DNA of 64,000 bases, from the NCBI GenBank assembly GCA_934668375.1, contig CAKUNF010000003.1, positions 62,001-126,000 of the forward strand, written 5' to 3'. This DNA comes from an uncultured Parolsenella sp. (GTDB lineage Bacteria; Actinomycetota; Coriobacteriia; Coriobacteriales; Atopobiaceae). The position numbers were made by a program, and so were the translations under genes. Of the stretch, positions 10,849 through 42,958 are shown one piece after another. Below the pieces are notes generated by a model, which was not told where the DNA came from, ran no database searches, and worked only from the letters and a program-made list of their open reading frames with translations. Positions within the stretch are counted from its first letter, which is position 1. Each line of letters begins with the position of its first letter.

Positions 10849-11463
10849 ATGGCCAATTCCACGCAGCAATCGAACGCCAACGCCCAGACGCGCGAGCACC
10901 TCGAGCTCGAGAACACGAACCGCTGGTCAACGCGACAGCTCGTCACGATGGCGCTCATGTGCGCCCTCGGCACGGTCTTCTCGTTCGTGCAGATCCCGCT
11001 CATCCCTGCCGCGCCGTTCCTCACGTACGACCCCTCGCTCGTGCCCGCCATGGTGAGCGGGCTTGCCTTTGGCACGGGCCCCGGCCTCGTCGTGGGCATC
11101 CTCACCGCATGCCTGCACGGCCTGGTCACCGGCGAGTGGGTGGGCTCGCTCATGAACGTCGTCGCCACTGTCTGCTACGTTGCGCCCGCCTCGCTCGTCT
11201 ACGCGCGCGCCCGCAGCAACGCCGGCGCCATCGGCGGCCTGGCGCTTGGCGTCGTGCTCGCCACGGCAGGCTCCATCGTCGCCAACCTCACGATCGGCGT
11301 GGCGTTCTGGTACGGCTCGGCAGACGCCATCATGCCGCTCATCCTGCCCGCCGTGCTGCCGTTCAACCTGGTGAAGACCATCCTGAACTCGGCGCTCACG
11401 CTCGTCGCGTTCAAGTCGCTCGCCGGGCTCATAGACACCGAGAAGGGCAACGGTCGCGCATGA
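10849..11463 (+). CDS. ribU: Riboflavin ECF transporter, substrate-binding component RibU
   Basis: 204 residues with about six hydrophobic segments after a 25-residue polar N-terminus. It belongs to the ECF S-component superfamily: the segment TRQLVTMALMCALGTVFSFVQIPL is the usual first helix with its alanine motif for docking on EcfT, and DPSLVPAMVSGLAFGTGPGLVVGIL is the following S-component signature. The riboflavin assignment rests on the FMN riboswitch directly upstream. Its TGA overlaps the ATG of the ATPase gene by 4 bases, so translation is coupled. Confidence 0.92.
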   Translation: MANSTQQSNANAQTREHLELENTNRWSTRQLVTMALMCALGTVFSFVQIPLIPAAPFLTYDPSLVPAMVSGLAFGTGPGLVVGILTACLHGLVTGEWVGSLMNVVATVCYVAPASLVYARARSNAGAIGGLALGVVLATAGSIVANLTIGVAFWYGSADAIMPLILPAVLPFNLVKTILNSALTLVAFKSLAGLIDTEKGNGRA

Positions 11464-13199
11464 TCGAGTGCGCAGGCGTCCACTACTCCTATGACGACGG
11501 GCACGAGGCGCTCGATGGCTTGAGCCTCGACATCGCGGACGGAGAGTTCGTGGCCGTCCTGGGCGGCAACGGCTCGGGCAAGTCCACGCTGGCGCGCCAA
11601 CTGGACGCCCTGCTCGTCCCCAGCGCCGGCACCGTGACGGTCGACGGCCTGTCCACGGCCGAGCGCAGGTATGTCTACGACATCCGCAGCCGCGTCGGCC
11701 TCGTGTTCCAGAACCCGGACGACCAGATCGTTGCCGGCATTGTCGAGGACGACGTTGCGTTTGGCCCCGAGAACCTCGGCGTGCCCACCTCCGAGTTGCG
11801 CGACCGCGTGACCGAGGCGCTTGCCGCGGTGGGTCTCGCCGGCTTTGAGCGCAGGGAGACCGCCAGCCTGTCCGGCGGGCAGAAGCAGCGCCTGGCGCTT
11901 GCCGGCGTGCTCGCCATGAGACCGCAGACGCTCGTGCTCGACGAGGCAAGCTCCATGCTCGACCCCCGCGGGCGCGCCGCGCTCATGCGCGCGTGTCGCA
12001 GACTCCACGAGCGGGGCATGACGATCGTCATGATCACGCACTTCATGGAGGAGGCCGCCGAGGCCGAGCGCGTCGTGGTGTTGAGCCACGGGCGCGTGAC
12101 GCTCGACGGCTCCCCCACCGAGGTGTTCTCGCAGGCAGACGCCCTCGCGCGCCTCGGCCTCGACATCCCCTTGCCCTATCGCGTGGGCCTCAAGCTGCGC
12201 GAGAGGATCCCGGGCGTCACGCCGCGGGTCACCATGGACGCCATGATCGGCGAGCTCCAGCGCCAAGGTGCCCAAAGGTCTTTGACACCTTTGGGCACCC
12301 TCGCCGCCCAAGATGCCCAAAGGTGTCAAAGACCTTTGGGTGCTTCGGGCGCTCCGGCGCTTGAGCTCGAGAACGTCTCGTTTGCCTACGAGCAGCACGG
12401 CGAGCCGGCGCTGCATGACGTATCGCTCACTGTCCGCACGGGCGAGCTCGTGGGACTTCTCGGCCACACGGGCTCGGGAAAGTCCACGCTCGTCCAGCTC
12501 ATGGCCGGCCTCGAACGCCCGGATGGCGGCCGCGTCCTCACGAGCGACGGCCGCGTGGGCGTCGTCTTCCAATACCCCGAGCGCCAGCTGTTCGCTCGCA
12601 CGGTCCGCGAGGACGTGGCCTTTGGGCCGAGAAACCTCGGTATCACGGGCGGGGAGCTCGCGGCCCGCGTCGACGAGGCCATCCGCGGCGTCGGCCTAGA
12701 CCCGCAGGAGGTGGGCGACGTCTCGCCCTTCGCGCTGTCCGGCGGCCAGCAGCGACGCATCGCCTTCGCCGGCGTGCTTGCCATGGAGCCGGACGTCCTC
12801 GTGTTCGACGAGCCCGTGGCGGGCCTCGACCCCCGCAGCCGCCGCGAGTTCATGCGACTGCTGCGCAAGTTGCACGGGCAGGGGCGCACCATCGTCATGA
12901 CCTCGCACAGCATGGACGACACCGCCGAGCTGTGCGGCCGCGTCATCGTGCTCTCTCGGGGCGAGAAGCTCCTCGAGGGCGCGCCCGCCGAGGTCTTCTC
13001 GCACGCAGACGAGCTCCGCCGTGCGGGCCTGGGCCTTCCCGGGGCGCAGGAGATGGCCTCGCGACTCTCGGAACTTGGCTGGCCTCTGCGCCGAGACGTG
13101 CTCTACACGCCCGACGTGCTCGCGGCCGACCTCGCCCTCTGCCTGGGAGCGAACGCAGCCGCAAGCCCCGACAACGACACCCACGGAGGTGGCCGATGA
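11460..13199 (+). CDS. Fused ECF transporter ATPase EcfA-EcfA' (two ABC domains in one chain)
   Basis: 579 residues with two complete ABC ATPase domains, which are separate genes in many Gram-positives. Domain 1: Walker A GGNGSGKST (about 35-43), Q-loop FQNPDDQIV, signature LSGGQKQR, Walker B TLVLDEASSMLD. Domain 2: Walker A GHTGSGKST (about 335-343), Q-loop FQYPERQLF, signature LSGGQQRR, Walker B VLVFDEPVAGLD. The domain-1 Walker B is followed by Glu-Ala-Ser and domain 2 by the usual Glu-Pro. The linker (about 270-295) is encoded by an inverted pair of palindromic repeats. The gene powers RibU uptake with EcfT, overlapping both neighbours by 4 bases. Confidence 0.93.
   Translation: MIECAGVHYSYDDGHEALDGLSLDIADGEFVAVLGGNGSGKSTLARQLDALLVPSAGTVTVDGLSTAERRYVYDIRSRVGLVFQNPDDQIVAGIVEDDVAFGPENLGVPTSELRDRVTEALAAVGLAGFERRETASLSGGQKQRLALAGVLAMRPQTLVLDEASSMLDPRGRAALMRACRRLHERGMTIVMITHFMEEAAEAERVVVLSHGRVTLDGSPTEVFSQADALARLGLDIPLPYRVGLKLRERIPGVTPRVTMDAMIGELQRQGAQRSLTPLGTLAAQDAQRCQRPLGASGAPALELENVSFAYEQHGEPALHDVSLTVRTGELVGLLGHTGSGKSTLVQLMAGLERPDGGRVLTSDGRVGVVFQYPERQLFARTVREDVAFGPRNLGITGGELAARVDEAIRGVGLDPQEVGDVSPFALSGGQQRRIAFAGVLAMEPDVLVFDEPVAGLDPRSRREFMRLLRKLHGQGRTIVMTSHSMDDTAELCGRVIVLSRGEKLLEGAPAEVFSHADELRRAGLGLPGAQEMASRLSELGWPLRRDVLYTPDVLAADLALCLGANAAASPDNDTHGGGR
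12269..12343. repeat. Inverted pair of palindromic repeats (family B) inside the ECF ATPase gene
   Basis: Two 27-base units, GCCCAAAGGTCTTTGACACC followed by TTTGGGC, and its exact reverse complement apart from the last base, separated by 16 bases. Each unit is itself a hairpin. The insertion keeps the reading frame and encodes the Gln/Leu/Pro-rich linker between the two ATPase domains. A related single copy is at 42910-42936. Confidence 0.9.
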
Positions 13200-13996
13200 G
13201 GAACACCTTCACGTTTGGCAGCTACGTTCCGGGCGCGTCTGCGCTGCACCGCCTCGACCCGCGCACGAAGCTGCTGCTTGGCATCGCGTTTCTCGTGCTC
13301 GCGCTGCAGGCGCGCGACTTCGCGGGGCTCGTGCCGGCCGCCGCGGCCGTGCTTGTGCTGTACGCCTGTGCGCGCATCACGCCGGCGAAGGCGATGCGCG
13401 CGCTTGCCCCCACGCTGGGGATCGTCGTGCTCGTATCGCTGCTCAGGCTCTTCACGCAGCAGGGCGGAACCGCGCTCGTGAGCTGGGGAATCATCCAGAT
13501 CAGCACGGGGAGCCTGCACGCGGCCACGCTCACGGCGGCGCGCATCACGCTCATGATGATGGGGATGAGCCTCGTCACGATGACCACGCCCACGCTCGAC
13601 CTCACGGAGGGGCTCGAGAGGCTCCTCTCGCCGCTCGCGCGCCTTGGGGTCCCCGCGCACGAGCTGGGCATGATTGCGGGCATCGCCCTGCGCTTCGTTC
13701 CACAGCTTGTCGCCGAGATGCAAGACATCAGGATGGCCCAGGCAGCTCGCGGCGCCCGCCTGGTCGGCAGCCCCGTACGAGGCGTCCGTCAGGTGTCGAG
13801 CGTGGCAGTACCTCTGATGGCAGGCGTGTTCCGCCACGCCGAGACGCTCAGCGAGGCCATGGACGCGCGCTGCTACCACGGTCAGCAGGGACGCACGAGC
13901 CTGCGGCCGCTCAAGCTCCACGGCCAAGACGCCGTGGCCGTTCTCGCCTACGTCGCCCTGCTCATCGCAACGCTGGCCATCAACGCAACTTGCTGA
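13196..13996 (+). CDS. ecfT: ECF transporter transmembrane component EcfT
   Basis: 266 residues. It forms the membrane scaffold that couples the two ABC domains to the S component. It opens with SALHRLDPRTKLLLGIAFLV, the standard EcfT N-terminus, has several hydrophobic segments, and carries both coupling motifs with the Ala-Arg-Gly signature: a first one in the form QAARGARLVG and the second as AMDARCYHG (Arg kept, Gly replaced by Cys). The ATG overlaps the stop of the ATPase gene (ATGA). This completes a four-function operon under the FMN riboswitch. Confidence 0.93.
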   Translation: MRNTFTFGSYVPGASALHRLDPRTKLLLGIAFLVLALQARDFAGLVPAAAAVLVLYACARITPAKAMRALAPTLGIVVLVSLLRLFTQQGGTALVSWGIIQISTGSLHAATLTAARITLMMMGMSLVTMTTPTLDLTEGLERLLSPLARLGVPAHELGMIAGIALRFVPQLVAEMQDIRMAQAARGARLVGSPVRGVRQVSSVAVPLMAGVFRHAETLSEAMDARCYHGQQGRTSLRPLKLHGQDAVAVLAYVALLIATLAINATC

Positions 13997-42655: not shown

Positions 42656-42958
42656 GGCGCGTCCCTTCTCTTGTGTGGCGAGGACGCGTCTTGCGCCTCG
42701 CCTGCGGCCCGCGTCGGCCGCAACCAACGTGAGACGCGGCCACCAGGGCGAGGTCGCGCAGCTATGAGGATGTCTCGCCGCGTCGGGGCCCCTGCCCGTC
42801 CATGGCGGACCGGGGCGATGCCCCAGACGTGCTTAATGATGCCGCTCGCCCACCGAGCGTTCAAGCACGATTGGGCGAGCGGCACGCAATGGAAACGTAA
42901 GGGTCGTGTGCCCAAAGGGGTCAGGCACCTTTGGGCCACTTCGGCTACAGGGCCCGCG
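42656..42958. other. Non-coding gap between nagB and rdgB with hairpin
   Basis: No gene is seen. It holds a perfect 12-bp hairpin GCCGCTCGCCCA/TGGGCGAGCGGC (42841-42883), probably ending the rph-rdgB transcript although no T tract follows, and a family B repeat at 42910-42936. A nagB promoter must lie in the left half, but I cannot place it with confidence. Confidence 0.5.
42910..42936. repeat. Single palindromic repeat of family B
   Basis: Arms GCCCAAAGG/CCTTTGGGC enclosing GGTCAGGCA, flanked by GT and CAC. The same arms and length as the pair in the ECF ATPase gene at 12269-12343, with a changed loop. It sits 22 bp after the rdgB stop. Confidence 0.8.

Follow-up and report, generated by a model that had tools for sequence, protein, structure and literature searches.

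The 64-kb stretch of DNA analysed here (the window) carries ecfAA', a gene for a probable fused energy-coupling-factor (ECF) ATPase whose product contains two ABC_tran stretches according to Pfam. It is placed between the genes of two membrane proteins (Table 1), the upstream one presumably an ECF S component and the downstream one, as we take it, EcfT. The linker that joins the two ATPase halves holds a pair of palindromic units, each of which is translated, in one and the same frame, as AQR-xxx-PLG. A search of the 64 kb for CCAAAGG-N4..14-CCTTTGG returned three matches (mean of 0.00 in 100 shuffles), two of them in the linker and one at 42912-42934, intergenic by the gene model. The single units have perfect hairpin arms of 13 and 9 nt with 7-nt loops, and together they form a longer inverted repeat with arms of 27 nt each (12271-12297 and 12314-12340), complementary at 27/27 positions (100%) and separated by 16 nt. 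Taken as 27-nt units in codon register, unit 1 differs from the reverse complement of unit 2 by one mismatch (100 shuffles, mean 0.00), and the start of unit 2 follows that of unit 1 by 45 nt, that is, 15 codons. The RNA of positions 12255-12355 is predicted to fold at -71.1 kcal/mol (z = -9.79).

An earlier note on this DNA had described two near-reverse-complement 27-nt units in frame in ecfAA', with a unit length and a 16-nt spacer that keep the frame through about 25 linker residues, and a related copy outside genes at 42910. The coordinates, the shuffles, the perfect 27-nt arms and the 45-nt spacing bear out the description of the pair; the distant copy is likewise confirmed as intergenic by the gene model, but its loop differs from those of the linker units. 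The arms are common to all three window copies, and the loops are different in each (TCTTTGACA, TGTCAAAGA and GGTCAGGCA).

Table 1. Genes and repeat features of the ecfAA' region and the distant copy of the unit
Feature	Position	Strand	Basis
Upstream membrane protein	10849..11463	+	ORF
ecfAA', probable fused energy-coupling-factor ATPase, 579 aa	11460..13199	+	ORF, translation, Pfam ABC_tran x2, same-form fused homologues
Interdomain linker, as surveyed, residues 256-300	12225..12359	+	Predicted model and survey definition
REP-like unit 1, GCCCAAAGGTCTTTGACACCTTTGGGC, encodes AQRSLTPLG	12270..12296	+	Pattern and inverted-repeat searches, translation
REPIN-like inverted doublet, predicted long RNA hairpin	12271..12340		27-nt perfect arms, 16-nt spacer, RNA fold
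REP-like unit 2, opposite orientation, GCCCAAAGGTGTCAAAGACCTTTGGGT, encodes AQRCQRPLG	12315..12341	+	Pattern and inverted-repeat searches, translation
Downstream membrane protein	13196..13996	+	Start read from sequence, end from ORF
Third REP-like copy, intergenic, GCCCAAAGGGGTCAGGCACCTTTGGGC	42910..42936		Pattern search, gene model

An AlphaFold2 model of EcfAA', built on an alignment of 16 sequences, has a mean pLDDT of 84.2, which falls to a mean of 69 over residues 271-280 and to under 50 over residues 280-295. Unit 2 and the spacer fall within the weakest-confidence part of the model, and such low values fit a flexible linker in the predicted protein.

Copies of the unit in the genus

Close homologues of the window protein from a protein search are 91, 82 and 73-76% identical to it, and a loosened form of the unit motif, [AS]Q[RGS]xxxP[LM][GD], is present in 11/11 of the closest protein rows, the window's own included. 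The number of units differs among these close homologues, the 91% identical protein P0002 having three (at the protein level only). In five aligned homologues at 53-57% identity both domains are kept and the motif, searched by eye, is absent. In the window units the codons CAA, AGG, CCT and TTG are used on 2/2 occasions each, against 5/20, 3/52, 1/26 and 6/71 in the rest of the gene; the same 2/2 usage of all four is found in the congener G066, where these codons are also uncommon elsewhere in the gene, and the units of a second congener, G067, give CAA 2/2, AGG 2/2, CCT 0/2 and TTG 1/1. This codon usage points to conservation at the DNA level rather than at the protein level.

The two congeners, each a single contig, belong to the 140 genomes searched from the family that includes G006, the genome with the locus of Olsenella uli An733. 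At no more than one mismatch the unit has 74 copies in G066 and 43 in G067, and a reversed-pattern control has 0. Three copies lie in the 64 kb examined of the window genome, whose total is inferred from the congeners, so that the claim of a multicopy family is based on G066 and G067. Exact CCAAAGG-N9-CCTTTGG has any match in 25/140 family genomes and more than 10 matches only in G045, G066, G067, G072 and G090, and a longer-arm version of the pattern is present in 0/9 genomes of other genera.

Genomic context was assigned to 109 copies (74/74 of G066, 32/43 of G067, from stretches taken around its exact copies, and the 3 of the window) with our own codon model, trained on composition-filtered seeds; a previous version of this model, which had put 35/109 copies inside genes, was dropped after inspection revealed these to be largely antisense shadow ORFs. 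Ninety-nine copies are intergenic, one overlaps a gene end and nine are intragenic. Four of the nine lie at or near C-terminal ends, and the remaining five are in the ecfAA' linker (two in the window, two in G066 and one in G067, where the second linker unit, with two mismatches, was left out of the 109). By this gene model no copy of the sample lies in mid-gene outside the ecfAA' linker, which is filled in all three species; apart from this linker, copies in the congeners are almost exclusively intergenic. Counterparts of the 42910-42936 copy are found in both congeners as a unit at or beside the orthologous site, with changed loops and, in G066, a degenerate form. Two further arrangements were observed in G066: a C-terminal tail made of two translated hairpin units (TKGDGFVWHPGTKGDGFVWHP) on a predicted protein some 243 residues long (G066:C1:1182526-1183254), and a stretch intergenic by the retained gene model (G066:C1:1250224-1250372) with four hairpin units in tandem at a 42-nt period.

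At the ecfAA' linker itself, the units of the window, G066 and G067 occupy the same position, near residue 270, with different loops: on the coding strand TCTTTGACA and TGTCAAAGA in the window, GGTCAGGCG and GGGCAGACG in G066, and GGACGTAGT and GCTACGTCC in G067 (reverse complement of the printed strand), the GACGTAG loop being abundant in the latter genome. In the window and in G067 the units form an inverted pair with a spacing of 45 nt, and in G066 both point the same way. No base-by-base alignment to an empty site was achieved.

Candidate transposases are present in both congeners, with three matches to PF01797 in G066 and two in G067, and three of these five loci were inspected. Two of them, L140 in G066 and L142 in G067, contain a RAYT-type transposase whose flanking sequence on either side is common to the two genomes, and imperfect GGGGACGGGTTC-type hairpins can be read from the sequence on both sides (the perfect-arm scan did not list them); the third has perfect AAAGGGACWGTCCCTTT hairpins as flanks. 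The flanking hairpins of L140 and L142 differ between the two congeners. None of the three inspected loci is flanked by the linker's own CCCAAAGG subfamily, and the tie between the window linker and the transposases is therefore indirect. The earlier proposal that a mobile REP/BIME-like element was recruited as protein sequence gains support from the congener copies, from their mostly intergenic position and from the inverted doublet, as well as from transposase genes flanked by a sister subfamily and from the low-confidence linker of the model. The outcomes that would have told against it, the same linker residues without a repeat or a unit with no other copies, did not occur, the motif being found in 11/11 closest rows and copies being found elsewhere.

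Linkers across the family

In 102/140 family genomes a match at E<=1e-100 covers most of P0001, and these genomes (30 + 72 loci) together with the window gave 103 ecfAA' genes, with 13.6 kb of linker and 167 kb in the rest of the genes. Inverted repeats scoring at least 14 fall within the linker in 18/103 genes and outside it in 4 (1.32 vs 0.024 per kb); at a score of at least 20 the figures are 11 for the linker vs 1 for the rest, and at 10 or more they are 31 and 45. Short-loop hairpins with arms of at least 10 number 13 in the linkers and 8 in the rest. The short-loop scans, and one imperfect short-loop scan with one match in 11 linkers, overlooked long-loop repeats that were found later. 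L001-L080, which include Collinsella and Eggerthellaceae, were covered by a short-loop scan only; it spanned L001-L110, with 8 not scorable, and among L001-L023 it detected linker hairpins only in L018 and L023, with 8-nt arms. Hairpins in the linkers of L249, L251, L254 and L261 were excluded from the REPs as they are located, by our reading, in the better-conserved start of the region.

The linkers that carry repeats do so in several forms. Eight contain two AATTGGGGACWGTCCCCAATT-type units, whose translation gives CELGTVPN-like peptides, L232 contains GATACGAAGGGACTGTCCCTTCGTATC and L269 contains CAAGACAAAAGGGACGGTTCTTTTGTCTTG. Much longer repeats are present in L203 (residues 256-301 of the open frame), where a translated inverted repeat has 50-nt perfect arms and a 33-nt loop, in L099 and L204, which share the same 79-nt palindrome in two genomes with 38-nt perfect arms and a 3-nt loop, and in L085, with 37-nt arms. 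Further members of the clade that takes in the TTGGGGAC linkers, L209, L205, L216 and L105 among them, seem by eye to have decayed or replaced units. In all, 15 of the 103 linkers were assigned to a repeat family, six more score at least 14, four more appear decayed by eye, and 78 have no recognised unit. On the question raised in the earlier note, whether linker length varies by repeat units, the number of units differs among close homologues (three in P0002), but repeats bring no rise in length: the 15 assigned linkers have a median of 39 aa and the 88 others, which include the six with a long inverted repeat, one of 42.5. As linkers with repeats are no longer than the others, it seems that the units constitute the linker and do not extend it.

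In a quick tree built without the linker, the window and its two congeners form one clade (SH-aLRT 100), far from L269. A larger clade, of 28 genes, comprises the clade of TTGGGGAC linkers, inside which the 38-nt palindromes are placed, and L232 beside it. As the 103 genes are related, counts among them are not independent events, and this placement allows at least three separate lineages to be counted, not more. The shared clade and a GGGAC core in many units suggest that the repeat families may be related to one another.

In other genera the linker is filled by other repeat families, and the three that were checked are all multicopy there. Copies of TTGGGGACWGTCCCCAA number 21-119 in seven of the eight genomes with this type in the linker (44 in G113, 119 in G105, 74 in G100, 48 in G097, 69 in G091, 34 in G118 and 21 in G006) and 5 in the eighth, G104; elsewhere there are 44 in G106, 46 in G110 and 1 in G007, and none in G021, G066 and G067. 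The unit of L269, ACAAAAGGGACGGTTCTTTTGT, searched at no more than one mismatch, has 43 copies in its own genome, G021, 3 in G022 and 0 in the 15 others searched, and that of L232, CGAAGGGACWGTCCCTTCG, at the same threshold, has 22 in its own genome, G007, 30 in G105, 1-7 in nine others and none in G021, G066 and G067. The abundance of a family in a genome does not predict its occupancy of the linker: the G007 unit occurs 30 times in G105, whose own ecfAA' linker carries another family; G106 and G110 have 44 and 46 TTGGGGAC copies, yet a different palindrome there; and the CCAAAGG pattern has 32 and 33 exact matches in G045 and G072, in whose ecfAA' linkers no such unit was found. Of the 117 copies in G097 and G091, 65 were examined for context, a sample into which the G091 ecfAA' stretch was put on purpose; 55 are intergenic and 10 intragenic, the latter comprising six at gene ends, three in the ecfAA' linker and one in a murT-gatD junction.

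A survey of flanks for the TTGGGGAC and G021 families, covering 30/35 transposase loci, found the TTGGGGAC family on both sides of transposase loci in 8/12 genomes, namely 7/8 of those with this type in the linker and G110, and, in G021, transposase loci with the G021 linker family on both sides. The finding is larger than the earlier observation: one linker holds several repeat types in several lineages.

Proposed origin and possible role of the linker hairpins

The reading that we hold to be probable is one of repeated in-frame capture, at a tolerant junction, of hairpins mobilised by RAYTs, the window pair being a REPIN-like doublet of a genus-wide multicopy REP family. RAYT-type (Y1) transposases would have moved the doublets, and most landings inside genes would have been purged; the ecfAA' junction would tolerate them because it appears unstructured and because the unit, in the frame used, is free of stop codons. 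Once a unit has landed, its arms would stay palindromic as the loops turn over, either by renewal (re-insertion, conversion or hairpin template switching) or by selection on the hairpin.

A single ancestral insertion in the genus, with loop differences produced by gene conversion or template switching and without new insertions, is a serious competitor to which we allow a little less than an even chance. It would account for the position near residue 270 shared by three species, for the alike arms and for the common 45-nt spacing of the window and G067, and the intergenic copy at 42910 is similarly matched at or beside its orthologous site. It is less easily reconciled with the different loop types (GTCAAAG, GTCAGGC and GACGTAG, the last one abundant in G067), with the G066 pair, which is not inverted, or with the three units of P0002 in a protein 91% identical to that of the window.

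It is also conceivable, although rather unlikely in our judgement, that the hairpin has a function: as a strong stem-loop in the mRNA it would slow or regulate translation between the ATPase halves and be kept by selection whichever REP family supplies it. The very stable predicted RNA fold and the persistence of very long linker repeats (arms of 50, 38 and 37 nt) agree with such a role. So does unit 1 of the eight TTGGGGAC-type linkers, which keeps 95% pairing with 4/15 pairs changed on both sides and has a covariation of 0.207 vs 0.108 in shuffles, 0/500 of them as high, in a test that relatedness weakens. Unit 2 of the same linkers, in contrast, is without covariation (83.3% paired, 342/500 shuffles as high), 78/103 linkers are without a recognised unit, and the same covariation would be expected of renewal from other copies or of template switching that corrects palindromes; the signal in unit 1 could be explained by selection, by renewal through new copies or by template switching. 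A modulation of translation by the predicted hairpin in ecfAA' mRNA, as the earlier note had suggested, is possible. Slightly less probable again is the notion of the ecfAA' linker as a docking site under selection, to which each lineage supplies its own REP/REPIN hairpin, useful as a translational pause between the ATPase halves; if it were true, selfish repeats would be interchangeable parts of a gene.

The earlier note had offered, as another possibility, that the repeat fused two formerly separate genes. REPs are normally intergenic, and both mid-gene sites, ecfAA' and murT-gatD, are junctions of two-domain single genes. The second site was found in L279 (2210-4354; G097:C3:555610-557754), a 715-aa gene in which Pfam places MurT joined to GatD, with a unit between the domains; murT and gatD are joined in one part of the family and are two neighbouring genes in G066 and G067. 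An alignment of 30 loci of best matches, 29 of which span the junction, shows an intact GGGACWGTCCC core in four (L312, L314, L316 and L328), with an inverted pair of units in L314, from G006. The other 25/29 junctions are without an intact core; some, such as L313, L317, L327 and L329, look like decayed or other units, and others, for example L315, L320 and L334, have no such look, which means that the fusion exists without a recognisable unit. Fused EcfAA' homologues are also present in Collinsella, Slackia and others, and ecfAA' fusion without recognisable units is common (a fused match in 102/140 genomes, 78/103 linkers without a unit), so the repeat probably did not cause the fusion; we regard this origin as very improbable and have set it aside for both genes. 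Finally, a chance origin of the palindromes, or conservation of AQRxxxPLG at the protein level, for which the partly conserved linker residues of close homologues could be adduced, is scarcely credible given a shuffle mean of 0.00 (100 shuffles), the rare codons in the units and the other copies between genes.

Relation to known palindromic elements

The proposed repeated capture of mobile hairpins can be set against several known systems. REPINs are inverted REP doublets that form hairpins and are tied to RAYTs (PMC3116915). The units described here resemble REPs and REPINs with their RAYTs (PMC3116915, PMC2817692) in being short palindromes in inverted doublets with predicted hairpins, multicopy and mostly extragenic. 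In both cases transposases are flanked by inverted units, here by a sister subfamily in the congeners and, in 7/8 TTGGGGAC genomes and in G021, by the linker family itself. Like a REP, the unit is a palindrome within the range of 20-40 nt, with many copies (in the congeners) and a predominantly extragenic location (99/109, own gene model), and the window pair is, like a REPIN, made of two inverted REPs that form a hairpin (27/27 arms). It differs from them in that the units lie in frame inside a gene and that the window's own subfamily flanks none of the transposases found (3/5 PF01797 loci of G066 and G067). Moreover, neither GTAG nor CGTC, the tetranucleotides of the GTAG/CGTC superfamily, occurs in the two window units or their immediate flanks.

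Other palindromes are known from coding sequence. Rickettsia palindromic elements (RPE), reportedly the subject of Ogata et al. 2000 and 2002, are one such case. According to PMC10969869, RPE are palindromic selfish DNA of about 150 bp, translated in frame within many unrelated genes; the likeness lies in that translation, and the difference in the 27-nt length of the present units and in the intergenic position of 99/109 copies, which place them outside the RPE. Perfect inverted repeats in coding sequence are also found in Nematomorpha (PMC6649704), in that case in mitochondria, and the part of this source consulted mentions neither REPs nor transposases.

Among the literature matches listed (titles and abstract starts), no report of REPs in ecfA or murT-gatD linkers and none of the recurrent filling of one linker by several repeat types was found, and the exact phrase REP-associated tyrosine transposase with coriobacteri- gave no match. 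Intragenic REPs are already known. For GTAG/CGTC REPs within ORFs, PMC3733652 reports that more than half of the inserts are dimers or groups encoding 20-30 residues and that a REP insert lies at about the same site of recB in two Xanthomonas species, and suggests that an insert may be neutral when it falls in a flexible linker. Compared with these cases, as far as that source describes them, several repeat types here fill one linker across genera, and the ecfAA' linker is nearly the sole mid-gene site in the sampled genomes. REPs have been defined as extragenic, and the intragenic cases reported in the sources consulted are for the most part dispersed among genes; what is new is the recurrence at one linker. 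One conserved junction with different repeat types in each lineage of one bacterial family amounts to a natural replicated experiment, which bears on the entry of mobile hairpins into proteins, on the making of linkers from selfish DNA and on the role of an interdomain mRNA hairpin, and the second junction, that of murT-gatD, gives a hint that such hairpins may land preferentially in fused genes.
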